Translations under genes and position numbers: made by a program
Origin: Pararhodobacter zhoushanensis
GTDB taxonomy: Bacteria; Pseudomonadota; Alphaproteobacteria; Rhodobacterales; Rhodobacteraceae
Assembly: GCF_003990445.1 (NCBI RefSeq)
Contig: NZ_REEZ01000011.1
Coordinates: forward strand, 1-64,000
Reading direction: 5' to 3'
DNA: 64,000 nucleotides
In this document: positions 33,780 to 56,861 of the stretch, one piece after another
How positions within the stretch are numbered: the first letter of the stretch is position 1
How the letters are laid out: each line of letters starts with the position of its first letter
Notes under the pieces: model-generated
Database searches by the model: none
What the model saw: only the letters and a program-made list of their open reading frames with translations
Told to the model about the DNA's origin: nothing

Positions 33780-35135
33780 TCAGACCGCGCGCAGGCCCGC
33801 ATCGAGGGCGCTCAGGATCACCTGCACGTCGTCCGAGGTCAGCACCAGCCCCGGTGACAGGATGATGTTCGGCCCCGACACCCGGACCATCGCCCCTGCC
33901 TCATACGCCGTTGCCTGCACCTTGGCCGGCACGGGCTTGTCCGGGGCGGCTTTGGTCGCGCGATCTGACACCAGTTCGATCGCGATCATCAGCCCGTGGC
34001 CGCCGCGCACGTCGCCGATCACGTCATACTTGTCCATCAGCGCCTGCGCGCCCGCGAACAACTCGGCCCCGCGCGCCGCCGCGTTCTCGGCGACGTTCAG
34101 GCGTTTGGTTTCTGCAAGGCAGGCGATGGCAGCCGCCGCCCCCACCGGGTGGCCCGAATACGTATACCCATGCCCGATCGCCGCGCGGCCGGTTTCATCC
34201 TTCTCGAAGGTCTCGGCGACATGCTCGGCGATCATCACCGCGCCGAAGGGGAAATAGCCGTTGGTGATCGCCTTGGCGGTGCACATGAAGTCCGGTTGCA
34301 CGCCCCAGAGTCGGCTGCCGCTCCACGCGCCCGTCCGCCCGAAGGCCGTGATCACCTCGTCCGCGATCAGCAGGATGCCGTTCTTGCGGCAGATCTCGGC
34401 CACGCCGGGCATGAAGCTGGCATGCGGCGGGATCACGCCGCCTGCGCCCAGCACCGGCTCCATGATAAACGCGGCGATGGTGCCTGCGCCCTGAAAGGCG
34501 ATTTCGTCCTCAAGCGCCTGCAGGCAGAGCTGGGCCAGTTTGGCCGGGTCGCTTTCGTTGAACGGGTTGCGGTAGGTATAAGGCGCGGGGATGTGGTGGC
34601 AGCCGGCCAGCAACGGCTCGTAGGCCGTGCGGAAATTGGCGTTGCCATTGACCGAGGCACCGCCGAAATGCGTGCCGTGATAGCCCTTTTTCAGCGACAG
34701 GAACTTGTAGCGCCCGGCCTCGCCACGGATCTTGTGGTACTGGCGCGACAGGCGCAGCGCGGTTTCAACCGAGTCCGACCCGCCCGACGTATAGAAGGCC
34801 CGTGTCAGCCCGTCGGGGGCGAAGAAGTCCTTCAGCTCTTCGGCCAGTTCGATGACGCAATCGTTCGAGGTTCCCCGAAAGATCGAGTAATACGGCAGCT
34901 TGTCCAGCTGCGCGCTGATCGCCGCCTTGATCGGCTCGCACGAGTACCCAAGGTTGACGTTCCACAGCCCGCCGACGCCATCGACCACCTCATGCCCGTC
35001 CACATCGGTGATCCGCACGCCCTTGCCGCCGGTCACGATGGTCGGCGGGTTCTTCTGGCTGTCCGCCGGGTGGGCCATCGGGTGCCACAGGTGGCGCGCG
35101 TTGTTGGCTTTGAGGAAATTCTCGTCTTTGGGCAT
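33780..35135 (-). CDS. Class III (omega) aminotransferase
   Basis: A 451-residue PLP-dependent aminotransferase. Conserved elements are the N-terminal HLWHPMAHP, the phosphate loop YTSGGSDSVETALRL (about 115-129), the cofactor Asp259 in LLIADEVITAFGRTG, and the PLP lysine Lys288 in CTAKAITNGYFPFGAVM. It resembles omega-amino acid:pyruvate and taurine/putrescine-type aminotransferases. It probably moves the amino group of an amine or omega-amino acid to a keto acid. It lies 9 nt downstream of the iclR gene, so it is probably part of the same transcript and regulon as the transporter cluster opposite. Confidence 0.92.
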   Translation of the reverse strand: MPKDENFLKANNARHLWHPMAHPADSQKNPPTIVTGGKGVRITDVDGHEVVDGVGGLWNVNLGYSCEPIKAAISAQLDKLPYYSIFRGTSNDCVIELAEELKDFFAPDGLTRAFYTSGGSDSVETALRLSRQYHKIRGEAGRYKFLSLKKGYHGTHFGGASVNGNANFRTAYEPLLAGCHHIPAPYTYRNPFNESDPAKLAQLCLQALEDEIAFQGAGTIAAFIMEPVLGAGGVIPPHASFMPGVAEICRKNGILLIADEVITAFGRTGAWSGSRLWGVQPDFMCTAKAITNGYFPFGAVMIAEHVAETFEKDETGRAAIGHGYTYSGHPVGAAAAIACLAETKRLNVAENAAARGAELFAGAQALMDKYDVIGDVRGGHGLMIAIELVSDRATKAAPDKPVPAKVQATAYEAGAMVRVSGPNIILSPGLVLTSDDVQVILSALDAGLRAV

Positions 35136-35144
35136 GGGGTTCTC

Positions 35145-35915
35145 CTAGAGAGCAACGATGTGATGAGGGGGAATACGACCGCCCAGACCCAGCGTCGCAT
35201 CGCGCGCGGCCGGGGCGAGGGCGGCCAGTATGCCGCGCTGATAGCTGTCGGTGACGCGGGACGTGGGGATCGCCACAGCCAGCGCGCCGCAGGAAAAGCC
35301 GTCAGGGCCGAAGAGCGGTACGGCGAGGCCATGAACCTCGGCCTCATAGGTCTGATCGGCGCAGGAATAGCCGCGCTGTTGGGCGAGTGTGACCAGACCG
35401 GCCAGTGACTCGCGGGTGATCGGGGTGGTGCCGGTGATCGGTGTCAGTTTGCGTGCCAGCACCCGCTCGCGCCGCTCAGGCCGCGTGAAGGCGGTGAACG
35501 CAAGGCCCGAGGCGGTGGCGTGCAGGGGCAGGGTCAGGCCCGGTTCGATGTGAACGCGGTTGGCCCGGTTGCTTTCGACCACGCCGATATTGGCCAGATC
35601 GCGGCCTGACACAAGCGACACATGCGCGGTCTCGCCGGTCTGTTCAGCCAGTCGTTCGAGGATTGGCATCAGCACGCGGTTGACGGGTTGCGTCGCCTCG
35701 CGCAAGCGCGCCAGACGCAGGACGCCAGCCCCCAAGCGCCAGCGCTTTGACTCGGGATTTTGCTCAACCAGTCCACTTTCCGCCATGTCGTTAAGCATCC
35801 GCAAGACGGTCGCCTTATCGATTCCCGATAGGCGGGCGAGGTCTGACAGGCCAATCTCCACCACTTTGTCGGTGAAGAAATCCAGCAGTTTCAAGGCTTT
35901 TTCGACGGTTCGCAT
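35145..35915 (-). CDS. IclR family transcriptional regulator
   Basis: A 256-residue IclR protein. The winged helix (about 1-70) includes MRTVEKALKLLDFF and LSDLARLSGIDKATVLRML; the ligand domain includes AHVSLVSGRDLANIGVVES and LPLHATASGLAFTAF. The ATG at 35915 is chosen because it begins with the usual family N-terminus; a GTG 10 codons upstream (35945) is possible. The gene is divergent from the TTT transporter genes and cotranscribed with the aminotransferase, so it most likely controls both sides through the 130-nt gap. Confidence 0.93.
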   Translation of the reverse strand: MRTVEKALKLLDFFTDKVVEIGLSDLARLSGIDKATVLRMLNDMAESGLVEQNPESKRWRLGAGVLRLARLREATQPVNRVLMPILERLAEQTGETAHVSLVSGRDLANIGVVESNRANRVHIEPGLTLPLHATASGLAFTAFTRPERRERVLARKLTPITGTTPITRESLAGLVTLAQQRGYSCADQTYEAEVHGLAVPLFGPDGFSCGALAVAIPTSRVTDSYQRGILAALAPAARDATLGLGGRIPPHHIVAL

Positions 35916-35999
35916 GGGGGTGAACGGATCCCGGATGAAAAACACTCATTGCAGACGCAAGAAAAGTCTTGACCGAATCCGCCCTGTCGCGCAACCTAA

Positions 36000-36023
36000 T
36001 TTTTGAAACAACGGTGTAAATAA
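36000..36023. promoter_or_regulatory. Candidate IclR operator
   Basis: TTTTTGAAAC and GTGTAAATAA, 4 nt apart, are imperfect inverted repeats (7 of 10 positions match) in the iclR-tctC gap. An upstream TTGACC (35970-35975) may be a -35 box. Binding is inferred from position and symmetry only. Confidence 0.35.
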
Positions 36024-36045
36024 TGAACCGACAAGGAGGACGCCC

Positions 36046-36984
36046 ATGAAGATCCATGTCTCTCTCGCCCTCGCGGCGGCGCTGGCTGTGCAGGCTGGTG
36101 CAGCGCTGGCCGAGTATCCCGAAGGCCCCGTGACCTTCGTCGTTCCGTGGCCGCCGGGTGATCTGGAAGACGTGCTGACCCGCATGATCGCCGAGGACTT
36201 TCAGGAGGCCTATGGCCAGCCCGCTGCGGTGCTGAACCGCCCCGGTGGCGGCGGCGGTCCGTTCCCCGGCGCGGTTGAAGTGGCGACGGCCCCGGCTGAT
36301 GGCTCGATGGTCGGCTCGTTCGTCATCGGTGTGCCGGTGGTTGGCCCGACCCTTGGCATTGCCGAGCTGGCCCCCGATCCCTTCACCCCGGTCGGCATCT
36401 TCCTGACCTATCCTTTTGTGCTGGCCACCGCGCGCAACGCCCCGTTCCAGACGATGCAAGAACTGGCGACGTACGCGCAAGATAACGAGGTGCTGCTGGG
36501 CCATTTCGGCGCCAGCCTGACGCCGACGCAGGTCAGCTTCGCGCTGGCGCATGAGATGGGCTTTTCGTGGGGTTCGGACGCGGCCTATGACGCGCTCGAC
36601 TGCAACACGCTGGCCTCGGGCGATGTGGATGTGATCAACACCACGATCCAGCTGATCATGCCCTGTCTTGACGACGTGACCATCCTTGCCGCCGTCACCG
36701 GTGAACGTCTGGGGCAAGCGCCCGACGCGCCGACGGTGGGCGAGCTGGTGCCGGATCTGGGCATTTCGCTGTGGAACGGGCTGTTCGTGCACAAGGACAC
36801 GCCGCCCGATGTGATCGCCCGCATCGCCGAAGTGGCGCAGGCGACCATCGCCAGCGAGCGCGCGCAGACCTTCGCCGCCGAGACGGGCGCGCAGATCTAC
36901 TGGCAGGACAGTGAAGCTGCCGCCGCGCAGATCGAAAGCGACATCGCCACCATGGCGCGGATCGCCGAAACCACCGGCCAGTAA
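36046..36984 (+). CDS. TTT transporter substrate-binding protein (TctC/Bug type)
   Basis: A 312-residue periplasmic binding protein. Signal peptide MKIHVSLALAAALAVQAGAALA, then VTFVVPWPPGDLEDVLTRMI and NRPGGGGGPFPG, the Bug family fingerprint for a carboxylate or zwitterion ligand. ACAAGGAGGACGCC is a strong ribosome binding site. Bug proteins bind a wide range of carboxylates, so the ligand is open. It heads the cluster and is followed by an attenuator. Confidence 0.92.
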   Translation: MKIHVSLALAAALAVQAGAALAEYPEGPVTFVVPWPPGDLEDVLTRMIAEDFQEAYGQPAAVLNRPGGGGGPFPGAVEVATAPADGSMVGSFVIGVPVVGPTLGIAELAPDPFTPVGIFLTYPFVLATARNAPFQTMQELATYAQDNEVLLGHFGASLTPTQVSFALAHEMGFSWGSDAAYDALDCNTLASGDVDVINTTIQLIMPCLDDVTILAAVTGERLGQAPDAPTVGELVPDLGISLWNGLFVHKDTPPDVIARIAEVAQATIASERAQTFAAETGAQIYWQDSEAAAAQIESDIATMARIAETTGQ

Positions 36985-36989
36985 CCCCA

Positions 36990-37018
36990 AACCCCGGCGC
37001 GCCTGCGCCGGGGTTTTC
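36990..37018 (+). terminator. Attenuator/terminator after the TTT binding-protein gene
   Basis: ACCCCGGCGC and GCGCCGGGGT form a perfect 10-bp stem with a GCCT loop, followed by TTTCAA. It lies between the binding-protein gene and tctB, the same arrangement as bztA-bztB, and would lower expression of the membrane and enzyme genes. Confidence 0.8.
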
Positions 37019-37035
37019 AATCCGTGCGAGGGCGC

Positions 37036-37584
37036 ATGAGCGACGATCCCACCGACCTTTCAGACCTGACCCATCCGCCCCACCAGCGGGCCGAGATCGT
37101 CTTTGCCGTGACCTCGTTTCTGGCTGCCGGTGTTCTGGCGCTGTTCTGGTCCTCGCAAACCACATGGATCGACGGGCAGCCGCTGGTCCGGCAGCCCGGC
37201 CTCTGGCCGCTGATCGCCATCGTCGGCATGCTGGTTTTCGGGCTGGGCGAGCTGATCGCCTGCCTGCGCCGCAACGCGCGCCACCGGGGCAGCAGCGTGA
37301 TGGCCGAGCTTCTGCTCTGGGCCAAGGCGTTCGAGTATGTCGTCTGGTTTCTGGCTTATGTGATGGCGACGCCCTGGATCGGCTACCTGCCCGCCAGCAT
37401 GATCTTTACCACGGCGCTGGCCTTCCGGCTGGGGTATCGCGGCAGGCTGCTGGCATTCTCGCCGCTGGTCGGGCTCGGGATCGTGCTGGTCTTCAAGACC
37501 TTCCTCGACGTGCGCATGCCCGGAGGTGCGGTCTATGACCTGCTGCCCCATGGTTTGCGCAACTTCCTCGTCCTATATTTCTGA
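37036..37584 (+). CDS. TTT transporter small membrane subunit (TctB)
   Basis: A 182-residue protein with four hydrophobic segments (about 20-38, 55-72, 100-118, 128-160), the pattern of TctB/DUF1468. A GTG at 37024 is in frame, but the ATG at 37036 has GCGAGGGCGC in front. tctA follows after 12 nt. Inner membrane. Confidence 0.88.
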   Translation: MSDDPTDLSDLTHPPHQRAEIVFAVTSFLAAGVLALFWSSQTTWIDGQPLVRQPGLWPLIAIVGMLVFGLGELIACLRRNARHRGSSVMAELLLWAKAFEYVVWFLAYVMATPWIGYLPASMIFTTALAFRLGYRGRLLAFSPLVGLGIVLVFKTFLDVRMPGGAVYDLLPHGLRNFLVLYF

Positions 37585-37596
37585 AGGGGTCCAAGC

Positions 37597-39093
37597 GTGG
37601 ACGCATTCCTTGACGCGCTGGTCATCGTCTCAAGCTGGCAGGTGATCGCGGCGCTGATCGCGGGGTCTATCGGCGGGGTGATCATCGGCGCTATCCCCGG
37701 TGTCGGGCCCGCCGTGGCGATCGCCATCCTGCTGCCTGCGACCTTTGGCATGGAGCCGATCGTCGGCCTGACGCTGCTCTTGGGCATCTACGGGTCGTCA
37801 ATGTTCGGCGGTTCGATCCCGTCGATCCTGATCAACACGCCCGGCACCGCCGTGAACGCGCTGACCACCTATGACGGCTATCCGATGACGCAGGCGGGCC
37901 AAGCCCCGCGCGCGCTGGGCCTGAGCTTTGGCGCGTCCTTCTTTGGCGGGCTGTTTGCGGTGATCGCACTGGTGCTGCTCTCACCCTTGCTGGCCCGCGT
38001 CGCGCCAATGTTCGGCTCACGCGAGATCTTTCTGGCCGCGCTGTTGGGCTGTATTCTGGTCGTCGTCGCGCACCGGGGTCAATCGCTGGCGGCGGGGGCA
38101 CTGCTGATGTTCGGGCTGTTCCTGAACACCGTCGGCATGGAAGCCAACAACTATACCCAGCGCTTCACCTTCGATCTGTCGTTCCTGACCCAAGGCGTCA
38201 ATCTGATCGTCGTCGTGCTGGGCCTCTTCGCCGTGTCGCAGGCGTTCATTCTGTTGACCGGCAAGGACGACACCGGCCCTGCGCCCAGCATCTCGGGCCA
38301 TGTCGGGCGTGGGGTGATGGAGGTGTTCAAGAACAAGCGGATCGCCACTGCAGGCGCGCTGTCAGGCACGATCATGGGGATCATTCCGGGGGTGGGCGAG
38401 TTCACCTCGCAATTCCTGTCCTACACCTATGCACGCAGCACCTCCAAACGGCCCGAGCTGTTCGGCAAGGGTTCGCCCGAGGGGTTGATTGCCTCGGAAA
38501 GCGCCAACAATTCGGTCCCGCCCGCCGCCATGGTGCCGCTCCTGGCGCTGGGCATCCCCGGCGAGGCGCTCACCGCGATGATGCTGTCGGTGTTCTATGT
38601 GCACAACGTGATCCCCGGTCCCGGCCTGTTCCGCGACCACATGGATTTCGTCATGGCGCTGTATATCTGTCTGGGGCTCTTGAACCTGCTGGCGCTGCTG
38701 TTCCTGCTGGTCGCGACCAAGCCGCTGCTCAAGGTGCTGGTGATCCCCAACCGCTATCTGGGCATGATCATTCTGGCGCTCAGCTTTGTCGGCATCTATT
38801 CGCTGCGCAACTCGGTGATTGACTGCATGCTGGCGGCGGTTTTCGGGTTGCTGGGCGTGGTGCTCAAGCGGCTGAACCTGCCGATTGTGCCAATCATTCT
38901 GGGCATGGTGCTGGGCGGCATCATGGAGGCCAAGTTCCGCACCTCGCTGCCCCGTATTCGCTCACTCTATTCGTGGATCGACAGGCCGGTGGCGATGGTC
39001 ATCTTCTGTCTGATCTGCGTGGTTCTGGCGCTGCACCTCTGGGGGATGTGGCGTGACTGGAAAGGAAAGAAAGATGGATCAGTCCAGCATTGA
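37597..39093 (+). CDS. TTT transporter large permease subunit (TctA), GTG start
   Basis: A 498-residue permease with about twelve membrane segments. The family motifs GAIPGVGPAVAIAILLPATF (about 32-51) and MGIIPGVGEFTSQFLSY are present. The start is GTG, supported by GAAGGGGTCC and the family N-terminus. The stop lies 20 nt inside the aldehyde dehydrogenase gene, so transport and catabolism are cotranscribed. Confidence 0.92.
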   Translation: MDAFLDALVIVSSWQVIAALIAGSIGGVIIGAIPGVGPAVAIAILLPATFGMEPIVGLTLLLGIYGSSMFGGSIPSILINTPGTAVNALTTYDGYPMTQAGQAPRALGLSFGASFFGGLFAVIALVLLSPLLARVAPMFGSREIFLAALLGCILVVVAHRGQSLAAGALLMFGLFLNTVGMEANNYTQRFTFDLSFLTQGVNLIVVVLGLFAVSQAFILLTGKDDTGPAPSISGHVGRGVMEVFKNKRIATAGALSGTIMGIIPGVGEFTSQFLSYTYARSTSKRPELFGKGSPEGLIASESANNSVPPAAMVPLLALGIPGEALTAMMLSVFYVHNVIPGPGLFRDHMDFVMALYICLGLLNLLALLFLLVATKPLLKVLVIPNRYLGMIILALSFVGIYSLRNSVIDCMLAAVFGLLGVVLKRLNLPIVPIILGMVLGGIMEAKFRTSLPRIRSLYSWIDRPVAMVIFCLICVVLALHLWGMWRDWKGKKDGSVQH

Positions 39094-40558
39094 CGCGCTG
39101 GCCGCGGCCCCGGTGGGGCCGCAGGGCCTGTTCATTGGCGGCAAGACGGTTCTGGCGACCGGCGGCGCGACGCTGCCTGTCACCTCTCCCATCGACGGGC
39201 GGGTGCTGACGCAGATCGCGGACGCCTCGGCGGTGGATGTGGATCTGGCCGTGGCCTCGGCCCGCGCCACGTTTGACAGCGGTGTGTGGTCCCGCGCCGC
39301 GCCCGCCGAGCGCAAGAAAGTCCTGCACCGCATCGCCGACGCCATCGAGCGCGAGGCGCTGGCACTGGCGGTGCTGGGTGTGCGCGACAACGGCACCGAG
39401 ATTTCCATGGCGATCAAGGCTGAGCCGGGCAGTGCTGCCGGAACCTTCCGCTACTACGCCGAGGCGCTGGACAAGGTGGCCGGTGAAATCGCCCCCACCG
39501 CGCCCAACGTGCTGGGGCTGGTGCACCGCGAGCCGGTCGGCGTGGTTGGGGCGATCGTGCCGTGGAACTTTCCGCTGATGATCGGCGCCTGGAAGATCGC
39601 TCCGGCGCTGGCGGCGGGCAATTCGGTGGTGCTGAAACCATCCGAGGTTGCCTCGCTCACCCTGCTGCGGCTGGCCGAAATCTGTGCTGAATGCGGGCTG
39701 CCGGACGGCGTGCTGAACGTCGTGACCGGCATGGGCGCCGTGTCCGGCGAGGCGCTGGGCCTGCACGCGGATGTCGATGTGCTGGTCTTCACCGGCTCGG
39801 GCGGCGTCGGGCGCAGGCTGCTGGAGTACAGCGCGCGCTCGAACCTCAAGCGGGTCTATCTGGAGCTGGGCGGCAAATCCCCCAACGTGGTCTTCGCCGA
39901 CGCGCCCGATCTGCGGCAGGCGGCCAAGGTCAGCGCGGCGGGGATCTTCCGCAACTCGGGGCAAGTCTGCGTCGCGGGTTCGCGTCTGCTGGTCGAACGC
40001 GCGGTGCATGAGGAATTCGCCGCGATGGTCGCCGAAGAGGCCCGCAAGATTAAGGTCGGCAACCCGCTGGACCTGAGCACGCAGGCCGGGGCGATTTCCA
40101 GCGAGATGCAGCTGGCGCGGGTGCAGAGCTTTGTCGAGAAGGCGCATGAAGAGGGCGGCGCGCTGCTGGCGGGCGGCGCGCGGATCTTGTCCGAGACCGG
40201 CGGCAGCTATTTCGCCCCTACCGTCTTTGATCACGTCACCCCCGACATGACCCTGTCGCGCGAAGAGGTCTTCGGCCCGGTGCTGGCGGTGACGCCTTTT
40301 GATACCGAAGAAGACGCCGTGCGCATGGCCAATGGCACCGAGTATGGCCTTGCCTCGGCCGTGTGGACCGGCAACCTGAGCCGTGCGCACCGGATGGTCG
40401 GCGCGATCAATGCGGGCGTGGTGCATGTGAATACCTACGGCGGCGCGGATAACACCGTGCCTTTGGGCGGCCATCGCCAATCCGGCAACGGGCATGACAA
40501 GTCCCTGCATGCGCTGGATAAATACGTGAACCTCAAGACCGCATGGATTCAACTGTGA
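39074..40558 (+). CDS. Aldehyde dehydrogenase
   Basis: A 494-residue NAD(P)-dependent aldehyde dehydrogenase. Catalytic Cys299 is in NSGQVCVAGSRL, the general base Glu264 in LELGGKSPN, and the cofactor motif GSGGVG is at 241-246. ATG 39074 is chosen over 39053 because GGAAAGGAAAG precedes it. It overlaps tctA by 20 nt and the next gene by 16 nt, showing tight coupling. In the inferred pathway it oxidises the aldehyde released by the phospho-lyase-like enzyme, for example a 2-aminoadipate semialdehyde-like compound. Confidence 0.92.
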   Translation: MDQSSIDALAAAPVGPQGLFIGGKTVLATGGATLPVTSPIDGRVLTQIADASAVDVDLAVASARATFDSGVWSRAAPAERKKVLHRIADAIEREALALAVLGVRDNGTEISMAIKAEPGSAAGTFRYYAEALDKVAGEIAPTAPNVLGLVHREPVGVVGAIVPWNFPLMIGAWKIAPALAAGNSVVLKPSEVASLTLLRLAEICAECGLPDGVLNVVTGMGAVSGEALGLHADVDVLVFTGSGGVGRRLLEYSARSNLKRVYLELGGKSPNVVFADAPDLRQAAKVSAAGIFRNSGQVCVAGSRLLVERAVHEEFAAMVAEEARKIKVGNPLDLSTQAGAISSEMQLARVQSFVEKAHEEGGALLAGGARILSETGGSYFAPTVFDHVTPDMTLSREEVFGPVLAVTPFDTEEDAVRMANGTEYGLASAVWTGNLSRAHRMVGAINAGVVHVNTYGGADNTVPLGGHRQSGNGHDKSLHALDKYVNLKTAWIQL

Positions 40559-41841
40559 CCGAGACCCTGATGCAACGGCGCGAGCGGCTGCTCGGGCCCA
40601 ACATGTCCGTCTTTTACGAAGAGCCCGTGCATCTGGTGCGCGGGCAGGGCGTGAAACTGTGGGACGCCGACGGGCGCGAATACCTCGATTGCTACAACAA
40701 CGTCCCGCATGTCGGCCATTGCCACCCGCGCGTGGTCGAGGCCATCTGCCAGCAGGCGGGCACGCTGAACACCCACACCCGCTATCTGCATGAGGGGATT
40801 CTGGACTATGTCGAGGCGCTGACCGCGACCTTTGATGATCCCTTTGACACCGCGCTCTTGTGCTGCACGGGGTCCGAGGCCAACGACGTCGCCCTGCGCA
40901 TGGCGCAGGCGCTGACCGGCAAGACCGGGGTGATCGCCACCGATCACACCTATCACGGCAACACCACCGCCGTGCATCAGCTCAGCCAGACCAACCCGCC
41001 GCCGGGCGGCTATTGGGACTCGGTCGCGTTCGTGCCTGCGCCTGACAGCTACCGCCCCTTGGGCGGCGTGCCGGGCATGGCCCACGCGCAGGCCTTTGCC
41101 GATGCGGTGGCCGCGCAGATCGCGGTGCTTGAGGCGCGCGGCTGCGGGTTCTCGTCGCTGATCCTGTGTCCCTATTTCGCGAACGAGGGCTTCCCCGACC
41201 TGCCGCAAGGCTGGCTGGACCCGGTGCAAGAGGTCGTGCGCAAGGCGGGCGGCGTGATCATCGCCGATGAGGTGCAGCCCGGCTTTGGCCGCGTGGGAAC
41301 CCATTTCTGGGGGCACCAGAAGATCGGGCTGAAGCCGGACATCGTGACGATGGGCAAACCCATGGCCAACGGCCACCCGGTTGCCGCCGTTGTCGCCCCG
41401 CGTGACACGATGCAAGCCTTCCGCTCGCGCTTTCGCTATTTCAACACCTTCGGTGGCAACCCCGTCAGCTGCGCCGCCGCGATGGCGACGCTTCAGGTGC
41501 TCAAGGACGAAAACCTGCAAGAGAACGCGCGCGACGTCGGCGCCTATGCGCGCGAGGGCCTGCGCGAACTGGCCACGCGTCATGAATGCATCGGCGATGT
41601 GCGCGGCGCGGGGCTGTTCTTCGGCGCCGAAATGGTGCTGGACCGGCAGACCAAGGAACCGGCAACCGCATTCGTGAAAAAGCTGTCGAATGGTATGCGC
41701 CAAAAGGGCGTGTTGCTCAACTTTCTGGGCATCCATTACAACGTGCTGAAAATCCGCCCGCCCATGCCCTTCAGCCGCGCCAACGCTGATCAGTTGATCG
41801 AAACGCTCGACAGCGTTCTGGCCGAGACGCCGCTGGCATGA
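40543..41841 (+). CDS. Class III PLP enzyme, phospho-lyase type (ETNPPL/PHYKPL-like)
   Basis: A 432-residue class III PLP protein. NMSVFYEEPVHLVRG, YNNVPHVGHCHPRVV, NTHTRYLHEGILDY and the PLP-lysine region VTMGKPMANGHPVAAVV (Lys272; cofactor Asp242 in IIADEVQPGFGR) strongly recall human ethanolamine-phosphate phospho-lyase and 5-phosphohydroxylysine phospho-lyase, from memory of those proteins. Those enzymes remove phosphate and ammonia from a phosphorylated amino alcohol to leave an aldehyde; they do not transaminate. The next gene encodes an APH-fold kinase and the previous one an aldehyde dehydrogenase, exactly the partners such a lyase needs. Ordinary aminotransferase activity cannot be excluded. 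Confidence 0.82.
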   Translation: MDSTVTETLMQRRERLLGPNMSVFYEEPVHLVRGQGVKLWDADGREYLDCYNNVPHVGHCHPRVVEAICQQAGTLNTHTRYLHEGILDYVEALTATFDDPFDTALLCCTGSEANDVALRMAQALTGKTGVIATDHTYHGNTTAVHQLSQTNPPPGGYWDSVAFVPAPDSYRPLGGVPGMAHAQAFADAVAAQIAVLEARGCGFSSLILCPYFANEGFPDLPQGWLDPVQEVVRKAGGVIIADEVQPGFGRVGTHFWGHQKIGLKPDIVTMGKPMANGHPVAAVVAPRDTMQAFRSRFRYFNTFGGNPVSCAAAMATLQVLKDENLQENARDVGAYAREGLRELATRHECIGDVRGAGLFFGAEMVLDRQTKEPATAFVKKLSNGMRQKGVLLNFLGIHYNVLKIRPPMPFSRANADQLIETLDSVLAETPLA

Positions 41842-42782
41842 GCCGGATCGCCAAAACCGCAGCCCCCTTGTGGGGGTTCGATCCGTCCCGCGTCTCGCTG
41901 GTCGCCGCCCGCGAGAATTCCGTGTGGCGGGCCGAGGGGGAGGGCGGCGCGTATGCGTTGCGCCTGCACCGTCCCGGCTATCGCACCGAGGCCGAGCTGC
42001 TGTCCGAGTTGCACTGGATGGAGATGCTGGCCAAGGGCGGGCTGACCGTGCCACGGCCCATCCCCTCGCTTGCCGGGCGGCTGGTGGAACGGGTGGGTGA
42101 CACGTCGGTCGATGTGCTCAGCTGGATGCCGGGGCGAATGCTGGGCGAAAAGGGCGGGATGCCGGGCATCACCGACCGGCCCGGCCTGATGCGCCAGCTG
42201 GGCGCGTTGCTGGCCCGGCTGCATGATCTGTCGGACGCCTGGACGCCGCCGCCGGGGTTCTCTCGGCCCAAGTGGGACCGGGCTGGGCTGTTGGGCAAAA
42301 CCCCGCTCTGGGGGCCGTTCTGGGAGAACCCCGATCTGACCGGCGAACAGCGCGACACCGTGCTGGCGGCGCAGGCCAAGGCCATGGCGGCGCTTGCCGC
42401 TCTGGAAGGGGGGCTCGACTACGGGTTGATCCACGCCGACGCGATCACCGAGAATATCATGGTCGACGGCGACCGGCTGGTGTTGATCGACTTTGACGAC
42501 GGCGGCTGGGGCTTTCGCGATTTCGAGCTGGCGACGGTGCTGATGCGGCAACTGGACCGGCCCGACTATCCCGCCCTGCGCACCGCGCTGATCGACGGCT
42601 ATGCCGCGCGCCGCCGGGTTGACGGGCGGGTGCTGGACCTGATGCTGCTGTTGCGCGCGCTCACCTATCTGGGCTGGATCATTCCGCGCCTGTCCGAGCC
42701 GGGCGGGGCGGAACGCTCGGCCCGCGCGGTAGCGACGGCGCTGCCGCTGGCACAAGCATATCTGAGAGGACATGATGGCTGA
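41838..42782 (+). CDS. APH-fold small-molecule kinase (hydroxylysine kinase-like)
   Basis: A 314-residue aminoglycoside-phosphotransferase-family protein. The catalytic loop is IHADAITENIMV (His199, Asp201, Asn206) and the metal-binding segment IDFDDGGWG (Asp218). The N-terminal lobe includes SVWRAEGEGGAYALRLHRPG. It is coupled by a 4-nt overlap to the phospho-lyase-like gene, so it probably phosphorylates the hydroxyl group of that enzyme's substrate; human hydroxylysine kinase has the same fold and the same partner type. Choline, homoserine or another amino alcohol is also possible. Confidence 0.82.
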   Translation: MSRIAKTAAPLWGFDPSRVSLVAARENSVWRAEGEGGAYALRLHRPGYRTEAELLSELHWMEMLAKGGLTVPRPIPSLAGRLVERVGDTSVDVLSWMPGRMLGEKGGMPGITDRPGLMRQLGALLARLHDLSDAWTPPPGFSRPKWDRAGLLGKTPLWGPFWENPDLTGEQRDTVLAAQAKAMAALAALEGGLDYGLIHADAITENIMVDGDRLVLIDFDDGGWGFRDFELATVLMRQLDRPDYPALRTALIDGYAARRRVDGRVLDLMLLLRALTYLGWIIPRLSEPGGAERSARAVATALPLAQAYLRGHDG

Positions 42783-44007
42783 TCGTACCATTCTCGTCGT
42801 TGGCACCTACGACACCAAACAGGATGAGCTGGGCTATATCGCCGAGGTGATCCGCGCGCAGGGCGGGGGCGTCGTGACGATGGATGTCTCGGTGCTGGGC
42901 GACCCTGCAGGGCCGGTGGATTACAGCAAGCATCAGGTGGCCGAAGCGGGCGGCGCGTCGATTGCCGAGGCGATCGCGGGCGAGGATGAGAACCTCGCGA
43001 TGCAGATCATGGCGTGCGGATCGGCGGCGCTGGCGGCGCGGCTTTGCGCCGGAGGGGTGTTTGACGGGGTCGTGGTGCTAGGCGGCTCGATGGGCACCGA
43101 TCTGGCGCTGGACCTGTGCGCGGCGCTGCCGCTGGGCGTGCCGAAATACATCGTCTCGACCGTCAGCTTCTCACCGATGATCCCGCCGCACCGACTGGCG
43201 GCGGATGTGCAGATGATCCTGTGGGCGGGGGGGCTTTACGGGTTGAACTCGGTCTGCAAAGCCTCGCTGTCACAGGCGGCAGGGGCAGTGCTGGGCGCGG
43301 CGCGTGCGGTGGAAAAGCCGAACCGGGACCGCCCGTTGATCGGCATGACATCCTTCGGCAAGACGGTGCTGCGCTATATGGTGACGCTGAAACCGGCGCT
43401 TGAGGCGCGCGGGTTCGAGGTGGCGGTGTTCCATGCCACCGGTATGGGCGGACGGGCGTTCGAGGCGCTGGCGGCAGAAGGGGCTTTCGCCGCCGTGCTG
43501 GACTTCGCGCCGCAGGAGGTTGGAAACCATCTGCACGGCTCGGCGATCAGCGCGGGGCCGGACCGGCTGACAGCGGCGGGCAAGGCAGGCGTGCCGCAGA
43601 TCGTGTCCATCGGTTGCTATGATCTGGTGGATCTGGTCGGCTGGCACGAACTCCCGGCGGCGCTGCAGGACCGCCCGGTTCATGCGCATAACCGGCTGAT
43701 TACCTCGGTGGTGATGACGGCCGAGGAGCGGGTGGCCATGGCGCAGGCGCTCTGTGCAAAACTGGCCGAGGCGACGGGGCCGGTGGTATTTTTGCTGCCA
43801 ACACAGGGCGGAAACGAATGGGACCGCGCGGGCGGGCCGCTGTCCGACCCCGAGGCACTGGCAGCTTTTGTGGCTGCCATGCGCGACCACTGCCCGGCGA
43901 ATGTGACGTTGATCGAACTCGATGCGCATATCAACGATCCGGCGTTTTCGGAGGCGGCGCTGCGCGTCGTGGACGGATGGCTCGGTGCGGGTGATCTGAC
44001 GCTCTGA
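42775..44007 (+). CDS. Tm-1-like ATP-binding protein (UPF0261)
   Basis: A 410-residue protein with the UPF0261/Tm-1-like pattern: ILVVGTYDTKQDELGYIAEV (N-terminal Rossmann-like half), VVLGGSMGTDLAL, and LIGMTSFGKTVLRYM then FHATGMGGRAFE in the C-terminal half. The tomato Tm-1 N-terminal domain is a relative; bacterial function is unclear to me. Two ATGs occur in tandem; the second (42775) has better spacing to GAGAGGA. It overlaps the kinase gene by 8 nt. The TIM-barrel partner often found with this family is absent here. Confidence 0.85.
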   Translation: MADRTILVVGTYDTKQDELGYIAEVIRAQGGGVVTMDVSVLGDPAGPVDYSKHQVAEAGGASIAEAIAGEDENLAMQIMACGSAALAARLCAGGVFDGVVVLGGSMGTDLALDLCAALPLGVPKYIVSTVSFSPMIPPHRLAADVQMILWAGGLYGLNSVCKASLSQAAGAVLGAARAVEKPNRDRPLIGMTSFGKTVLRYMVTLKPALEARGFEVAVFHATGMGGRAFEALAAEGAFAAVLDFAPQEVGNHLHGSAISAGPDRLTAAGKAGVPQIVSIGCYDLVDLVGWHELPAALQDRPVHAHNRLITSVVMTAEERVAMAQALCAKLAEATGPVVFLLPTQGGNEWDRAGGPLSDPEALAAFVAAMRDHCPANVTLIELDAHINDPAFSEAALRVVDGWLGAGDLTL

Positions 44008-44061
44008 GGGATCAGGCGGAGCGCGCGGGCAGGCCCGCGCGCGTTGCTTTGAGTGCGATCA

Positions 44062-52064: not shown

Positions 52065-52871
52065 TCAGCCGGGGGCAAAGCTGAGGGAAACCTGACCAAA
52101 GCTGCCAAAATCGGCATCGAACCGGCTGCCCGGGGGTGCCTCGACCGGACGCACGAACGACCCCGAGAGCACGACGTCGCCCGCCGCAAGCCCCTGACCG
52201 TACTGCGCGAGTCGCCGGACCAGCCAGACGATCCCCGTTGCGGGATCGTCCAGCACCCCCGCGCCCAGCCCGGTTTCCTCGACCACGCCATCGCGTTTCA
52301 GGATGGCCCCGGCCCAACGCAGATCCGTGCTGCGCGGGTCGTGGCGTTGCGGGCCCAGCACGATGCCCGCGTTCGCGGCATTGTCGGCGATGGTGTCGGT
52401 CACCTTGCGCAGTGCGCCGGTTTCAGGGTCGGCGCGCAGGATGCGGGTGTCCAGGATCTCCAGCGCCGGGGCGACATAGTCGGTCGCTTCCAGCACCTGA
52501 TCGCGGGTCACATCGGCCCCGGCCAGCGGCGCACGCAGGATGAAGGCGATCTCGGCCTCGATCCGTGGCTGGATGAAGCGCCCTTTGGGCACCTCGGCCC
52601 CGTCGGCAAAGAGCATATCATCGAACAGCACACCCGAATCCGGCGTGTCGATCTTCAGCGCATCCTGCATGGCGCGGCTGGTCAGGCCGATTTTCCAGCC
52701 GATCACCCGGCGTCCGGCGGCGCGCTTGTGCGCCACCAGCGCGGCCTGCACGGCATAGGCATCATCCAGCCCCATACCGGGATGCGCGCGTGACAGCAGG
52801 CCGATCTGTGACCCGCTCTGTTCAGCCGCAAACAGCGCGGCGGCGGCGGCCTTGTGCTGGTCCGGCGTCAT
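52065..52871 (-). CDS. hpaH: 2-oxo-hept-4-ene-1,7-dioate hydratase
   Basis: A 268-residue hydratase/decarboxylase-family enzyme of the homoprotocatechuate meta pathway, adding water to the dienol acid before aldol cleavage. RRVIGWKIGLTSRAMQDAL, IDTPDSGVLFDDML and PRIEAEIAFIL contain the acidic metal ligands typical of the MhpD/HpaH family. It overlaps the upstream FAH-family gene by 4 nt. The aldolase gene hpaI that should act next is not in the window. Confidence 0.9.
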   Translation of the reverse strand: MTPDQHKAAAAALFAAEQSGSQIGLLSRAHPGMGLDDAYAVQAALVAHKRAAGRRVIGWKIGLTSRAMQDALKIDTPDSGVLFDDMLFADGAEVPKGRFIQPRIEAEIAFILRAPLAGADVTRDQVLEATDYVAPALEILDTRILRADPETGALRKVTDTIADNAANAGIVLGPQRHDPRSTDLRWAGAILKRDGVVEETGLGAGVLDDPATGIVWLVRRLAQYGQGLAAGDVVLSGSFVRPVEAPPGSRFDADFGSFGQVSLSFAPG

Positions 52872-53734
52872 TCGTCCACCACGCCGTTGCGCAGCGTGCC
52901 GATGCCCGCGACCTCAACCTCGACGACATCGCCGGGCACCAGATATTTCGGCGGATCGAACCGCGCGCCCGCGCCGGTCGGCGTGCCGGTGACGATCATG
53001 TCGCCGGGCATCAGCGTGGTGAAGGTGCTGATATAGGCGATTTCCTCGCGGATAGAGAACATCATCCGCGCCAGCACATCCTCTTGCCGGACCTCGCCAT
53101 TCACCCGCGTGACAAGCCGCGCGCCGTCCAGCTGTGCGGCGTCCTCGAAGGCCACCATCCACGGCCCGATCGCGCCCGAGGCATCCCAGTTCTTGCCCTG
53201 CGTCACGTTGAACTTCGCGTGCCGCACCCAGTCGCGGATCGTGCCCTCGTTGCACAGGCTCAGGCCGGCGATGTGGTCATAGGCATCGGCCGCCGCAATC
53301 CGCCGCCCGCCCTTGCCGATCACCACGACCACCTCACCCTCGTAATCCAGCGTGTGGTTCTCCGGCGGGCGCACCAAAGGCCGCCCGTGGCCGGTAAAGC
53401 TCCGCGCAAAGCGCGGGAAGAGTGACATGTATTTGGGCTGCGCGCTGCCATCCTTGTACTCGGCGTTGCGGTCGGGGAAATTCACGCCCACGCACAGGAT
53501 CTTCTCGGGGTCTGGCACCGGGATCTCCCAGTCGAACGACCCGTCCGCATGCGTCGCCGTACGCCCCTCGGCCGCCGCAGCCAGTGCGCCCAACCCGTCC
53601 GCCGCGATCACATCGCGCAGCGTTCGCCACTGCGCAAACTCCCCCGACAGCGCCATCACGCCGCCCTCGACCACCACCCCGTACAGCTGCTGGCCCTCAG
53701 CCCGGATCGTCGCATACCGCGTTCTCGTCATCAT
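52868..53734 (-). CDS. Fumarylacetoacetate hydrolase family protein (probable HpaG-type decarboxylase/isomerase)
   Basis: A 288-residue FAH-fold enzyme. ILCVGVNFPDRNAEY, HTLDYEGEVVVVIGKGGRRI (with the metal-binding Glu pair) and SIREEIAYISTFTTLMPGDM are typical. In this operon it most likely converts 5-carboxymethyl-2-oxo-hex-3-ene-1,6-dioate by decarboxylation, the HpaG step. It has one FAH domain, while E. coli HpaG has two. Its start codon lies in an arm of composite repeat E: GAGGACAG-ATG-ATG supplies the ribosome binding site. Two tandem ATGs leave the exact start open. Confidence 0.82.
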   Translation of the reverse strand: MMTRTRYATIRAEGQQLYGVVVEGGVMALSGEFAQWRTLRDVIAADGLGALAAAAEGRTATHADGSFDWEIPVPDPEKILCVGVNFPDRNAEYKDGSAQPKYMSLFPRFARSFTGHGRPLVRPPENHTLDYEGEVVVVIGKGGRRIAAADAYDHIAGLSLCNEGTIRDWVRHAKFNVTQGKNWDASGAIGPWMVAFEDAAQLDGARLVTRVNGEVRQEDVLARMMFSIREEIAYISTFTTLMPGDMIVTGTPTGAGARFDPPKYLVPGDVVEVEVAGIGTLRNGVVDE

Positions 53735-53826: not shown

Positions 53827-53832
53827 ACCCCG

Positions 53833-54813
53833 TCACGGTGCAATGATCGGCTGCGCTTTCAACGTTGACGCCACCAACTCAGCCCCCTCGAAAACCGACC
53901 CCTCTTCGAACCACGAGCGCGGTGCAGGCGCCCCCCACAGGGTCTGGCGCTGCGGGTCTTTCAGATCCCAGCGGATCGGTTCCAGATCGGGGTCTACGGT
54001 CATGTAGTCCGAGCAATAGATCTCGATCCGATGCCCGTCAGGGTCGCGGACATAAAGGAAAAACGCGTTGGAAATCCCGTGCCGCCCCGGCCCGCGCTCG
54101 ATATTGGGCAGGTAGCCGGTGGTCGACATCAGATCGAGCAGGTCGATGATGTTCAACGGCGTCGGCACCCAGAAGGCCGTGTGATGCAGCCGCGGGCCGG
54201 TGCCGTTGGTAAAGGCCACGTCATGCACGCCGCCCTTGCGGTGCAGCCACGCCGCCCAGACTTTCCCGCTCTCGCTGTCCTCGGTGTATTCGGTCACCCG
54301 GAAGCCGATCGAATTATAGAACGCGACCGACGCATCGACGTCCGACGAGAACATGTTGAAATGGTCGATCCTGAGCGGCTTCACGCCCCGGTACAGCTTG
54401 TATTGCTGATGAATCGGCGCCAACCGGTCCATGCGGCAGTAAAATTCCAGCGGAATGCCAAAGGGATCGCGGGTGCGGAACGCCCGGCCGATGAACGGCC
54501 GCTTCACCCATTCGACCGGCAGGTCTTGTGCTGCGAACCACGCGGCGGCCTTGTCCAGCTCCTCCTCGTCGAACACCTTGAAACCCAACCCGCCGACCGA
54601 GGCTTCCTCGGCCTTCAGCAGCGCGATGCAATGATGCCCACGTTCCTCCATCGCCCGAAGATAGATGATCGAGTCATCTTCATCCGTGACCTGCAGGCCC
54701 AGCGTATCGACATAAAACGCGCGCGAAGCGGCAAGATCGGTCACGCGGTATTCGACATGGCTGAGCCGGACGATGTTGAACGGCGGGTACAGGTTCGGTG
54801 CCGGAATGGGCAT
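53833..54813 (-). CDS. hpaD: 3,4-dihydroxyphenylacetate 2,3-dioxygenase
   Basis: A 326-residue type I extradiol dioxygenase of the vicinal-oxygen-chelate fold, opening the homoprotocatechuate ring. Two VOC repeats are visible: RLSHVEYRVTDLAASRAFYV and RIDHFNMFSSDVDASVAFYN. The iron or manganese ligands are probably His151 (DHFNMF), His210 or His211 (RLHHTAFWV) and Glu264 (GHRIEIYCSDY), matching the known 2-His-1-Glu spacing. Start ATG has CGAGAGGAACCGCC upstream. It lies 42 nt after hpaE. Confidence 0.93.
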   Translation of the reverse strand: MPIPAPNLYPPFNIVRLSHVEYRVTDLAASRAFYVDTLGLQVTDEDDSIIYLRAMEERGHHCIALLKAEEASVGGLGFKVFDEEELDKAAAWFAAQDLPVEWVKRPFIGRAFRTRDPFGIPLEFYCRMDRLAPIHQQYKLYRGVKPLRIDHFNMFSSDVDASVAFYNSIGFRVTEYTEDSESGKVWAAWLHRKGGVHDVAFTNGTGPRLHHTAFWVPTPLNIIDLLDLMSTTGYLPNIERGPGRHGISNAFFLYVRDPDGHRIEIYCSDYMTVDPDLEPIRWDLKDPQRQTLWGAPAPRSWFEEGSVFEGAELVASTLKAQPIIAP

Positions 54814-54855
54814 GGCGGTTCCTCTCGGACGAAAAACTAGGGGGGAGGCGAGGGC

Positions 54856-56364
54856 TTACGCCCCCAGCCGCTGGATCTTGTGCTGGCCCAGCGCAAAGGC
54901 GGTGTTCTTGGTTTCCATGTAGAAATCGAACGACCAGTCGCCGCCATCGCGGCCCACGCCGCTGGCCTTGACCCCGCCAAAGGGCGACGGCAGGTGGCGC
55001 ACGTTGTCGCTGTTGACCCAGATCATCCCGGCCTCCAGCGCCTCCGAGAACCGCAGCGCGCGGGTCAGATCATTGGTCCACAGATAGCCAGTCAGCCCGT
55101 ATGCCACCCCATTGGCGATGCGCAGCGCCTCGTCCTCATCCTTGAAGGTGATCGAGGTCAGGAAGGGCCCGAACACCTCCTCCTGCGCGATGCGCATGTC
55201 GGGCGTGGCACCGGTGAACAGGGTCGGCGTGACGAACCAGCCTTTGTCGCCCAGCCGCTCGCCCCCGGCGCGGCAGACAGCACCCTCGTCCTTGCCGATG
55301 CCGACATAGGACATGACCTTGTCAAAGTGGGTCTTGTGAATCAGCGGCCCGACCTCGGTTGCCGGGTCCAGCGGATGCCCGACCTTGATGCGCTTGATGC
55401 GCGCGGCCAGCTTTTCGTGGAACTCTTCGGCAATCGACTCCTGCACCAGCAGACGCGAAGACGAGGTGCAACGCTCGCCGTTGAGCGAGTAGATCATGAA
55501 GATCACCGCATCCAGCGCGCGCTCCAGATCGGCGTCTTCAAACACGATCACCGGGTTCTTCCCGCCCAGCTCGAAATGCACACGCTTCAGGGTGTCAGCA
55601 CCCTGTTTCATGATCATCGAGCCGGTCTTCGACTCGCCGACAAAGGCGATCGCCTTGATGTCGGGATGTTCGGTCAGGGCTTTGCCCGCATCCTCGCCAA
55701 AGCCGTTGACGAGGTTCAGCACCCCATCCGGCAGACCGGCATCGCGGCAGATCTCGGCCAGCAGTCGCGCGGTCAGCGGGCTGAACTCGGCGGGCTTGTG
55801 TACCACCGTGCAGCCCGAGGCCAGCGCCGGCGCGATTTTCCAGGTCGACAGCATGAAGGGCGTGTTCCACGGCGTGATGACGCCGACCGGCCCGATGGGA
55901 TTGCGACTGGTCATGTTCAGCTGACCGGGGGCCTGCAGCGTCTGGCCGTCCCGGGCGCCGGGCGCCATGTCGGCGAAATAGCGAAAGTTTTCGGCGGCGC
56001 GCAGCGCGGCCTTGGACATGAAACGCCAGGCCTGACCGGTGTCCCAGCATTCGCACAGCGCGATTTCGTCAGCGCGGGCGACGATTGCATCCGCGATCTT
56101 GTGCAACAACGCCTTACGCTCTTTACCCGGCATCGCGGCCCATGCGGGGAAAGCGGCTTTCGCGGCCCTGGCGGCAGTGTCCACATCCGCGGCGGTCGAG
56201 CGCGAGACCGAGCAGATCAGCGAATTGTCCACCGGAGAATGGGTGTCAAAGCTGCCCCCCGAGCCGGGCACATCCTGTCCGTTGATCAGATTGACGATCC
56301 CGGCATCGCGGAACCGGGCGAGATGGCTGTCGAGCTGGGCGAGGCGGGTGGCGAGATCGGTCAT
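54856..56364 (-). CDS. hpaE: 5-carboxymethyl-2-hydroxymuconate semialdehyde dehydrogenase
   Basis: A 502-residue aldehyde dehydrogenase that oxidises the ring-cleavage semialdehyde made by HpaD. Catalytic Cys299 lies in NGERCTSSSRLLV and Glu265 in FELGGKNPV; ITPWNTPFMLSTWKIAPA binds cofactor. Its place between hpaF and hpaD supports the specific role. It overlaps hpaF by 4 nt. Confidence 0.93.
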   Translation of the reverse strand: MTDLATRLAQLDSHLARFRDAGIVNLINGQDVPGSGGSFDTHSPVDNSLICSVSRSTAADVDTAARAAKAAFPAWAAMPGKERKALLHKIADAIVARADEIALCECWDTGQAWRFMSKAALRAAENFRYFADMAPGARDGQTLQAPGQLNMTSRNPIGPVGVITPWNTPFMLSTWKIAPALASGCTVVHKPAEFSPLTARLLAEICRDAGLPDGVLNLVNGFGEDAGKALTEHPDIKAIAFVGESKTGSMIMKQGADTLKRVHFELGGKNPVIVFEDADLERALDAVIFMIYSLNGERCTSSSRLLVQESIAEEFHEKLAARIKRIKVGHPLDPATEVGPLIHKTHFDKVMSYVGIGKDEGAVCRAGGERLGDKGWFVTPTLFTGATPDMRIAQEEVFGPFLTSITFKDEDEALRIANGVAYGLTGYLWTNDLTRALRFSEALEAGMIWVNSDNVRHLPSPFGGVKASGVGRDGGDWSFDFYMETKNTAFALGQHKIQRLGA

Positions 56365-56756: not shown

Positions 56757-56770
56757 GGTTCCTCCTCCGT

Positions 56771-56810: not shown

Positions 56811-56861
56811 GCCTGCAGCAAAATGCTTGATTTGTTCAGCGCGATCCGCCAGAGCAGCGCC

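Follow-up and report, generated by a model that had tools for sequence, protein, structure and literature searches.

What could a bacterium degrade with a closely packed run of transporter, dehydrogenase, PLP-enzyme and kinase genes? Nine genes fill positions 33780-44007 of the window (the whole 64,000-nt stretch of DNA analyzed), just as a reading of the sequence alone had described them, with seven genes on the + strand facing an iclR-aminotransferase pair on the − strand. We abbreviate the class III aminotransferase as AT, the aldehyde dehydrogenase as ALDH, the phospho-lyase as PLY and the APH kinase as KIN. The − strand pair comprises AT (33780..35135), a class III omega-aminotransferase of the PRK07481 subfamily (NF005683, 731 bits above a cut-off of 575; closest PDB entry the omega-transaminase 5lh9, 446 bits), and an IclR-family regulator (35145..35945; IclR_C and HTH_IclR). 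The + strand run opens with a tripartite tricarboxylate transporter (TTT), made up of the substrate-binding protein TctC (36046..36984; PF03401, 68.7 bits), the small membrane subunit TctB (37024..37584, with an alternative start at 37036; PF07331, 47.8 bits) and the large membrane subunit TctA (37597..39093; PF01970, 417 bits). It continues with ALDH (39074..40558; PF00171, 530 bits; closest PDB entry KauB, 540 bits), the class III PLP enzyme PLY (40543..41841), the APH-fold small-molecule kinase KIN (41838..42782; PF01636, 112 bits; closest PDB entry 6ef6, 104 bits) and a Tm-1-like/UPF0261 protein (42772..44007; NF002676, 612 bits above 556). Gaps from TctC to TctA measure 12 to 51 nt, neighbors from TctA to the Tm-1-like gene overlap by 4 to 20 nt, and the Pfam families TctC, TctB, TctA, Aldedh, Aminotran_3 (twice), APH, UPF0261 and IclR all score above their cut-offs. 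The KIN translation contains HADAITEN and DFDD, taken to be kinase motifs. Directly 3' of the last operon gene lies a terminator-like hairpin of nine G-C pairs (44021..44042, + strand), found in a scan whose overall yield was not above that of shuffles (8 observed versus 6.4 expected); a promoter scan returned nothing exceeding chance. The layout of this block is not due to chance, because homologues of KIN, AT, ALDH and the Tm-1-like protein recur in the same stretch in 76, 37, 36 and 37, respectively, of 86 sources (the window plus loci L068-L152). These presences were counted by tblastn, since gene calling yielded few genes, or none at all, at some loci (for instance L079, L081, L086, L101 and L139).

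A homoprotocatechuate (Hpa) ring-cleavage cluster, absent from the sequence-only reading, lies at 52065-57305 of the same window, 10 to 15 kb from PLY, and suggests a different substrate for the operon. Its − strand genes encode HpaH, the 2-oxo-hept-4-ene-1,7-dioate hydratase (52065..52871; TIGR02312, 382 above 351.5); an HpaG-like isomerase/decarboxylase (52868..53734), in cluster position but at 160 bits under the TIGR02303 cut-off of 276; HpaD, the 3,4-dihydroxyphenylacetate 2,3-dioxygenase (53833..54813; TIGR02295, 413 above 321); HpaE, the 5-carboxymethyl-2-hydroxymuconate semialdehyde dehydrogenase (54856..56364; TIGR02299, 770 above 638); and an HpaF-like delta-isomerase (56361..56756), likewise in cluster position and at 75 bits under the NF011605 cut-off of 215. 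The MarR-family regulator HpaR (56823..57305; TIGR02337, 130 above 121) is on the + strand. HpaI is encoded elsewhere in the genome, its best score of 351 falling below the cut-off of 369. A search of the genome for the canonical 4-hydroxyphenylacetate 3-monooxygenase HpaB found none (best scores 327 against 480 for HpaB-1 and 299 against 885 for HpaB-2); a substrate with a single ring hydroxyl would therefore depend on some other hydroxylase.

We consider it quite probable that the operon serves as a module for breaking down beta-hydroxyphenethylamines of the octopamine or noradrenaline type, whose ring bears a 4-hydroxy or 3,4-dihydroxy pattern, and that it feeds Hpa ring cleavage; N-methyl forms such as synephrine and adrenaline may also serve as substrates where an N-demethylase-like gene occurs. 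KIN would phosphorylate the benzylic hydroxyl, PLY would then eliminate phosphate and ammonia to give a (di)hydroxyphenylacetaldehyde, and ALDH, the proposed (di)hydroxyphenylacetaldehyde dehydrogenase, would oxidize this to the (di)hydroxyphenylacetate. HpaBC would install the second ring hydroxyl where needed, after which HpaDEFGHI would cleave the ring and process the product. AT, likely an amine transaminase of the tyramine/dopamine type, would convert tyramine or dopamine to the same aldehyde, and an aromatic amino acid decarboxylase in several relatives could be a source of such amines. We infer these reactions and their substrate, together with the parts played by the transporter and by the Tm-1-like protein, from family membership, gene linkage and a common operator-like site, all of which are observed. 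TTT transporters carry mostly carboxylates, so that a cationic amine would be an unusual cargo, which counts against the proposal. If it is true, phospho-lyase chemistry on aromatic amines is a new entry to the homoprotocatechuate pathway, a conserved block so far annotated as just aminotransferase, phosphotransferase and Tm-1-like protein is explained, and soil, plant-associated and marine bacteria may be seen to feed in this way on animal and plant signaling amines. The prediction is concrete enough for testing with two purified proteins.

Comparison with relatives ties the gene set to aromatic catabolism. PLY and HpaD lie within 16 kb of each other in 13 of 295 family genomes, representing 13 different genera, where random placement within 20 kb would give 0.45. 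Among the 30 genomes whose PLYs rank closest, 25 have a homoprotocatechuate 2,3-dioxygenase (both types counted), as do 79 of the 265 others; five of those 30 carry neither dioxygenase, and two of the five are less than 90% complete. Aromatic markers (hpa structural genes, HpaD_Fe or aromatic decarboxylase, scored up to 10 kb on each side of PLY at the loci and across the whole of the window) occur in 23 of the 41 sources that have AT, ALDH or the Tm-1-like gene, against 1 of the 45 that have none of the three. The remaining 18 of those 41 show no marker in the stretch examined, including all four with a DMGDH-type protein (DAO plus GCV_T). That this protein sits inside the operon of L106 and L108, with homologues in L095 and L086, is itself counted for the proposal. 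A Rhizobium brockwellii plasmid (L160) carries within 21 kb HpaB, HpaC, ALDH, an APC permease, IclR, Tm-1, HAD, AT, PLY, kinase, HpaR/F/E/D, decarboxylase, SSADH and HpaG/H/I, with the hpa homologies seen by tblastn as well; the aromatic amino acid decarboxylase there has its nearest relatives among DOPA and tyrosine decarboxylases.

The sequence-only reading had pointed to hydroxylysine or another amino alcohol, which we dropped as the main substrate owing to the linkage to hpa and aromatic amino acid decarboxylase genes; that linkage points instead to an aromatic beta-hydroxy amine. The leading alternative, unlikely in our estimation, is that AT and ALDH create the hpa link by breaking down tyramine or dopamine while KIN and PLY serve a small amino alcohol (ethanolamine or 1-amino-2-propanol) that is co-imported or co-induced by happenstance. 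AT and ALDH alone could indeed account for part of the hpa linkage. An aromatic role does not hold for the PLY subfamily at large, because genomes with lower-identity PLYs carry the dioxygenase at near the background rate (23 of 63, versus 56 of 202 without PLY) and 44 of the 45 sources lacking AT, ALDH and Tm-1 are free of aromatic markers. Four more distant PLY-kinase pairs (Sinorhizobium meliloti L156, Rahnella L157, Klebsiella L158 and Agrobacterium L159) adjoin ABC transporters and in part SDR or GntR genes, and have no annotated hpa gene within 8 kb. The characterized relative 6tor acts, going by its name, on phosphoethanolamine, which is presumably the substrate of 5g4i too. Against a coincidental pairing stand two runs in which the kinase and phospho-lyase genes themselves join hpa genes, with gaps of at most 77 nt. 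L174 carries the co-directional run TctA-ALDH-Tm1-HpaF-E-D-G-H-PLY-KIN, and no AT match appears in the 19.9 kb examined; L177, a contig of just 7.2 kb that ends about 0.5 kb upstream of PLY, carries PLY-KIN-HpaF-E-D(Fe)-G-H as one run and has no AT. Moreover, the HPA-linked PLYs are spread over several sub-clades with differing gene orders.

By descent, the 40543-41841 protein is a phospho-lyase. Its best PDB matches are 5g4i, titled 'phospholyase' (381 bits), and 6tor, the ethanolamine-phosphate phospho-lyase (356 bits), with the next enzyme at 190 bits. A tree built by a quick method, with no bootstrap and with long-branch warnings, placed it with human ETNPPL (6tor) and 5g4i in a clade of 100 rows at an SH-aLRT support of 100. 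AT (which groups with transaminases) and six other class III proteins of the same genome fell outside this clade; the six were taken from eight such matches, L008 and L010 being left out, and PHYKPL was not included. The firm grouping with ordinary transaminases that would have refuted the sequence-only reading did not appear among the transaminases included. The blocks NNVPHVGH, LNTHTRYLH, GKPMANGHP and FNTFGGNPVS match their 5g4i and 6tor counterparts exactly or nearly so, the three proteins having NNVxHVGH, N-x-x-(S/T)-R-(Y/F)-L, GKPMxNGHP and FNTxxGNPVS in common, and are unlike dialkylglycine decarboxylase. K272, presumed to be the PLP lysine of the class III family, is invariant in 26 of 26 alignment rows. 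Although 33 alignment columns set the HPA-linked PLYs apart from ETNPPL and 5g4i, we rejected them as an aromatic-pocket signature, as most also hold in non-aromatic PLYs. It is very improbable that PLY is just an ordinary transaminase, with KIN working on some other cellular substrate. PMC6620236 does call the protein beside the Aut-locus phosphotransferase an aminotransferase, but the PDB scores and tree placement led us to reject that identity here, and the finding that 76 of the 86 sources have a kinase homologue in the stretch with PLY speaks against it as well. Phospho-lyase descent and this kinase association lend support to the kinase-lyase chemistry first suggested for the locus. Hydroxylysine degradation by hydroxylysine kinase, phosphohydroxylysine phospho-lyase and semialdehyde oxidation to 2-aminoadipate is scarcely credible, since, although the enzyme classes match those of the human pathway that Veiga-da-Cunha reportedly described in 2012, the annotated recurrent neighbor families include no lysine or aminoadipate gene, whereas genes of the hpa set and for aromatic decarboxylases turn up often.

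How much of this is new? Phospho-lyase chemistry has been characterized for phosphoethanolamine and phosphohydroxylysine, and in the human ETNPPL/PHYKPL system with hydroxylysine kinase a kinase acts before a class III PLP ammonio-phospho-lyase yields an aldehyde. The window PLY shares the ETNPPL clade but differs in its likely substrate class and in its setting, a bacterial operon with a transporter, ALDH and a nearby ring-cleavage cluster. Its closest solved structure, 5g4i/5g4j, we take to be Arthrobacter A1RDF1, and the closest kinase structure, 6ef6, titled 'Aminoglycoside phosphotransferase', we assume to be the aminopropanol kinase of the Aut/RMM microcompartment. That 1-amino-2-propanol locus, which combines an APH-family phosphotransferase, an aminotransferase, an ALDH and a permease (PMC6620236 and PMC4207490), is already published. 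The sequence-only view that no known bacterial pathway has this set must therefore be narrowed, and it holds insofar as PMC6620236 proposes no kinase-lyase route. The window operon likewise has phosphotransferase, aminotransferase and ALDH but is tied to homoprotocatechuate catabolism, and we rejected a microcompartment reading because the genome has no shell gene (0 PF00936 matches at E ≤ 0.001). PMC8154272 names phosphoethanolamine phospho-lyase and 'a closely related enzyme', and describes PbfA, an (R)-1-hydroxy-2-aminoethylphosphonate ammonia-lyase of bacterial catabolic clusters that performs a class III PLP 1,2-elimination directly on the hydroxy compound; by score the window PLY is not PbfA (NF049939, 194 bits against a cut-off of 525). 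From the known hpaBCDEFGHI pathway, of which HpaD, HpaE, HpaH and HpaR exceed curated cut-offs in the window, the locus differs in the proposed phosphorylation-elimination entry coupled to ring cleavage. None of the matches listed (titles and beginnings of abstracts in the open-licence literature) reports octopamine, noradrenaline or synephrine being degraded through a kinase and a phospho-lyase, and none of them couples the Hpa pathway to such an entry. The aromatic use of the kinase-phospho-lyase set appears new.

On balance, we think it likely that a widespread alphaproteobacterial pathway, in marine roseobacters and rhizobia, takes catecholamine-type and trace amines (octopamine and noradrenaline and, via N-demethylation, synephrine or adrenaline) through ATP-dependent phosphorylation, PLP-dependent elimination of phosphate and ammonia and meta-cleavage under a dedicated IclR operator. 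We propose that the IclR protein regulates the operon, controlling the gene set through a predicted operator, AAACAACGGTGTAAATAATGAACCGA (36006..36031, + strand; consensus core GGTTCANATAATGAACC). A first guess, TTGC-N4-GCAA at 35949, was set aside for the conserved GGTTCANATAATGAACC site, as its pattern occurs in 0 of the other 26 IclR regions. The chosen site, itself among the 25 training sites, has a matrix score of 34.8, and the next best in the window reaches 11.6. Allowing up to three mismatches, the core matches its own genome 17 times, with one mismatch at the window site and three at each of the other 16; a reversed-pattern control gave 11. The operator is missing from L174, L175 and L177. 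An operator-like site is kept ahead of the IclR gene in relatives from both the Rhodobacterales and the Rhizobiales, and it is common to the two orders despite their differing transporters (TTT or APC).

By descent, the class III PLP protein encoded at 40543-41841 (+) is a phospho-lyase, as judged from its phylogeny and its matches in the PDB. A phmmer search returned 381 bits against 5g4i, described as a phospholyase, and 356 bits against the ethanolamine-phosphate phospho-lyase 6tor, and the next match after the phospho-lyases was dialkylglycine decarboxylase at 190 bits. In a maximum-likelihood tree of 113 rows (a quick method without bootstrap, with long-branch warnings on several outgroup rows and on 5g4i), the protein falls with 5g4i and 6tor in a 100-row clade with an SH-aLRT value of 100. 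The clade excludes six of the eight remaining class III proteins of the same genome (L002-L006 and L009; L008 and L010 were left out of the tree, as was PHYKPL), the adjacent aminotransferase (AT; 33780-35135, -) and five relatives of that aminotransferase, with dialkylglycine decarboxylase as outgroup. The sequence-only reading had named firm grouping with ordinary transaminases as the first result that would refute its proposal; in the tree the protein groups instead with the phospho-lyases.

The nine tightly spaced genes described in that reading were all borne out in position, spacing and family, with 39074 as the most likely start of the aldehyde dehydrogenase (ALDH) gene. That gene block stands, but the reading overlooked a cluster of homoprotocatechuate ring-cleavage (hpa) genes at 52 to 57 kb, which neighbor clustering showed to recur next to the phospho-lyase (PLY) gene in other loci. 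The sample comprised named relatives (the best 80 of 583) and five plasmid loci (L068-L072), hand-picked from the 40 matches listed, at a stage when the aromatic link had yet to emerge. NCBIfam models identified HpaH, HpaD, HpaE and HpaR above cut-off in this cluster, and HpaG and HpaF below it. A Pro/Ala-rich open frame of 1061 aa (44151-47336, -) adjoins the operon.

Linkage of PLY to homoprotocatechuate cleavage was quantified at identity thresholds that we set. Across 295 genomes of the family, PLY (at least 55% identity) occurs in 93, HpaD in 93 and both in 40; the two genes lie no more than 16 kb apart in 13 of the 295, against an expectation of 0.45 if genes were placed at random (within 20 kb in 4 Mb). 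A second dioxygenase type, HpaD_Fe, is present in 36 of the 295 and, counted from coordinates, adds three linked genomes (G095, G178 and G270). Among the 30 genomes whose PLYs are closest, 25 have a dioxygenase of either type, compared with 79 of the 265 others, the cut at 30 being the number of loci returned by the PLY search; for HpaD alone, cuts at 13, 20, 40, 60 and 93 gave the same direction. The other 63 PLY genomes (23 with a dioxygenase) are near the rate of those lacking PLY (56/202). Related species are not independent samples, yet gene arrangements differ between loci, and the hpa-linked PLY rows are spread over several sub-clades of the tree.

Among 86 sources (the window, taken whole, and L068-L152, most spanning no more than 10 kb per side, L068 12 kb, and many shorter at contig ends), tblastn placed at least two hpa structural genes in 16, and these carry the APH-fold kinase (KIN; 41838-42782, + in the window) in 16/16, ALDH in 15/16 and AT in 14/16. 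An aromatic marker, counted as hpa genes, HpaD_Fe or an aromatic decarboxylase, occurs in 23 of the 41 sources that have AT, ALDH or the Tm-1-like gene, versus 1 of the 45 that have none of the three. The Tm-1-like/UPF0261 protein (42772-44007, +, and relatives) accompanies the block in 37 of the 86 sources, and is the sole PF06792 match in its own genome.

Among the strongest single loci is L174 (G104), in which TctA-ALDH-Tm1-HpaF-HpaE-HpaD-HpaG-HpaH-PLY-KIN run on one strand with overlaps or with gaps no longer than 77 nt, measured from tblastn matches; tblastn found no AT in the 19.9-kb stretch covered. On a 7.2-kb contig of G095, L177 reads PLY-KIN-HpaF-HpaE-HpaD_Fe-HpaG-HpaH, its gaps no larger than 50 nt. 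Within 20 kb, L176 and L179 each combine an aromatic decarboxylase with AT, IclR, the TTT transporter genes, ALDH, PLY, kinase, Tm-1 and hpa genes; L178 has a similar set minus the decarboxylase, and L175 only PLY, kinase, HpaR and HpaD_Fe. A gene island of ~21 kb on the Rhizobium brockwellii plasmid pRltCC275eF (L160), excluded from the 86 sources because it was picked as an example, carries HpaB, HpaC, ALDH, an APC permease, IclR, Tm-1, HAD, AT, PLY and KIN, together with HpaR, HpaF, HpaE, HpaD, a PLP decarboxylase, SSADH, HpaG (a tblastn match whose annotation reads fumarylacetoacetate hydrolase family protein), HpaH and HpaI. Its decarboxylase is closest to the DOPA decarboxylase 7xin (377 bits), then to the tyrosine decarboxylase 6eei (324 bits).

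We infer from protein families and linkage every reaction of a route for octopamine- or noradrenaline-type amines. The kinase would phosphorylate the beta-hydroxyl, the phospho-lyase would eliminate phosphate and ammonia, ALDH would oxidize the resulting arylacetaldehyde, and the Hpa enzymes would cleave the ring; AT would handle non-hydroxylated amines. Of all the parts, the TTT transporter fits this route least comfortably. HpaB or HpaC was found by tblastn in several rhizobial loci; the window's own genome has no HpaB above cut-off, which favors a catechol substrate or an unrecognized hydroxylase in this organism. DMGDH/sarcosine-dehydrogenase-type proteins with DAO and GCV_T domains lie in the operons of L106 (3976-6498) and L108 (1689-4121), and tblastn places homologues in or beside those of L095 (4075-6531) and L086. 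These proteins point to N-demethylation of the kind that synephrine or adrenaline would call for, with the DMGDH-type protein as candidate enzyme, but the stretches covered at these four loci contain no aromatic marker (0/4).

Synephrinase is known from Arthrobacter, and amino alcohol phosphate lyase biochemistry from Erwinia and Pseudomonas; we take 6ef6 to be an aminopropanol kinase. Among the literature matches listed, none describes a kinase-phospho-lyase route for octopamine or noradrenaline. Like the window operon, the Aut locus, with its APH-family phosphotransferase (PMC6620236), and the RMM loci (PMC4207490) combine a phosphotransferase with an aminotransferase and an ALDH; the passages describing these loci do not assign kinase-lyase chemistry to them.

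About half of the sources (45/86) lack AT, ALDH and Tm-1 altogether, 44 of these 45 without an aromatic link, and the four distant PLY-kinase pairs inspected (L156-L159, on S. meliloti, Rahnella, Klebsiella and Agrobacterium plasmids) adjoin ABC transporters, some also with SDR and GntR genes, as candidate aliphatic amino alcohol modules. The pair therefore appears to be a general module for amino alcohols in bacteria, with aromatic use as one of its branches. A second PLY type, likewise paired with a kinase, lies close to arfB or to genes for nicotinate phosphoribosyltransferase/nicotinamidase, and its loci lack AT, ALDH and hpa (L097, L112, L113, L118, L119, L121, L129, L132-L136, L138, L141 and L146-L148).

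An inverted repeat, GGTTCANATAATGAACC, precedes the IclR gene in Rhodobacterales and Rhizobiales, with TTT or APC transporters alike. Trained on 25 of 27 regions (L095 and L106 fell below our limit), a matrix scores the predicted operator at 36006-36031 of the window at 34.8. Of the AT loci, 33 of 36 have a predicted site above 14, many of these being training sites of the matrix, versus 3 of 49 loci without AT; two of these three (L079 and L111) carry ALDH, IclR and TTT genes. Non-training sites score 29.0 (L068), 31.1 (L079), 29.1 (L105), 30.0 (L176), 20.2 (L178) and 25.0 (L179); the matrix scan found no site above 9 in L174, L175 or L177. The core pattern, at up to three mismatches, has 17 matches in the window's own genome (the window site with one mismatch, the remaining 16 with three), and a reversed-pattern control has 11. 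In the stretch 618-2319 of L087, a second predicted operator (score 20.9) lies just upstream of an Amidohydro_3 gene, whose product may release amine from N-acyl conjugates, and L111 has a weaker second site upstream of PLY.

Convergent with the aminotransferase gene is one for a PehA-like sulfatase/phosphoesterase (31901-33562, +; 290 bits against a cut-off of 900), with a homologue clustered in one other locus only, L106. Farther upstream, a cytochrome P450 gene (12209-13414, +; Cyp119-like, 174 bits against a cut-off of 680) occupies an unusual place, two called genes before secY (14285-15625).
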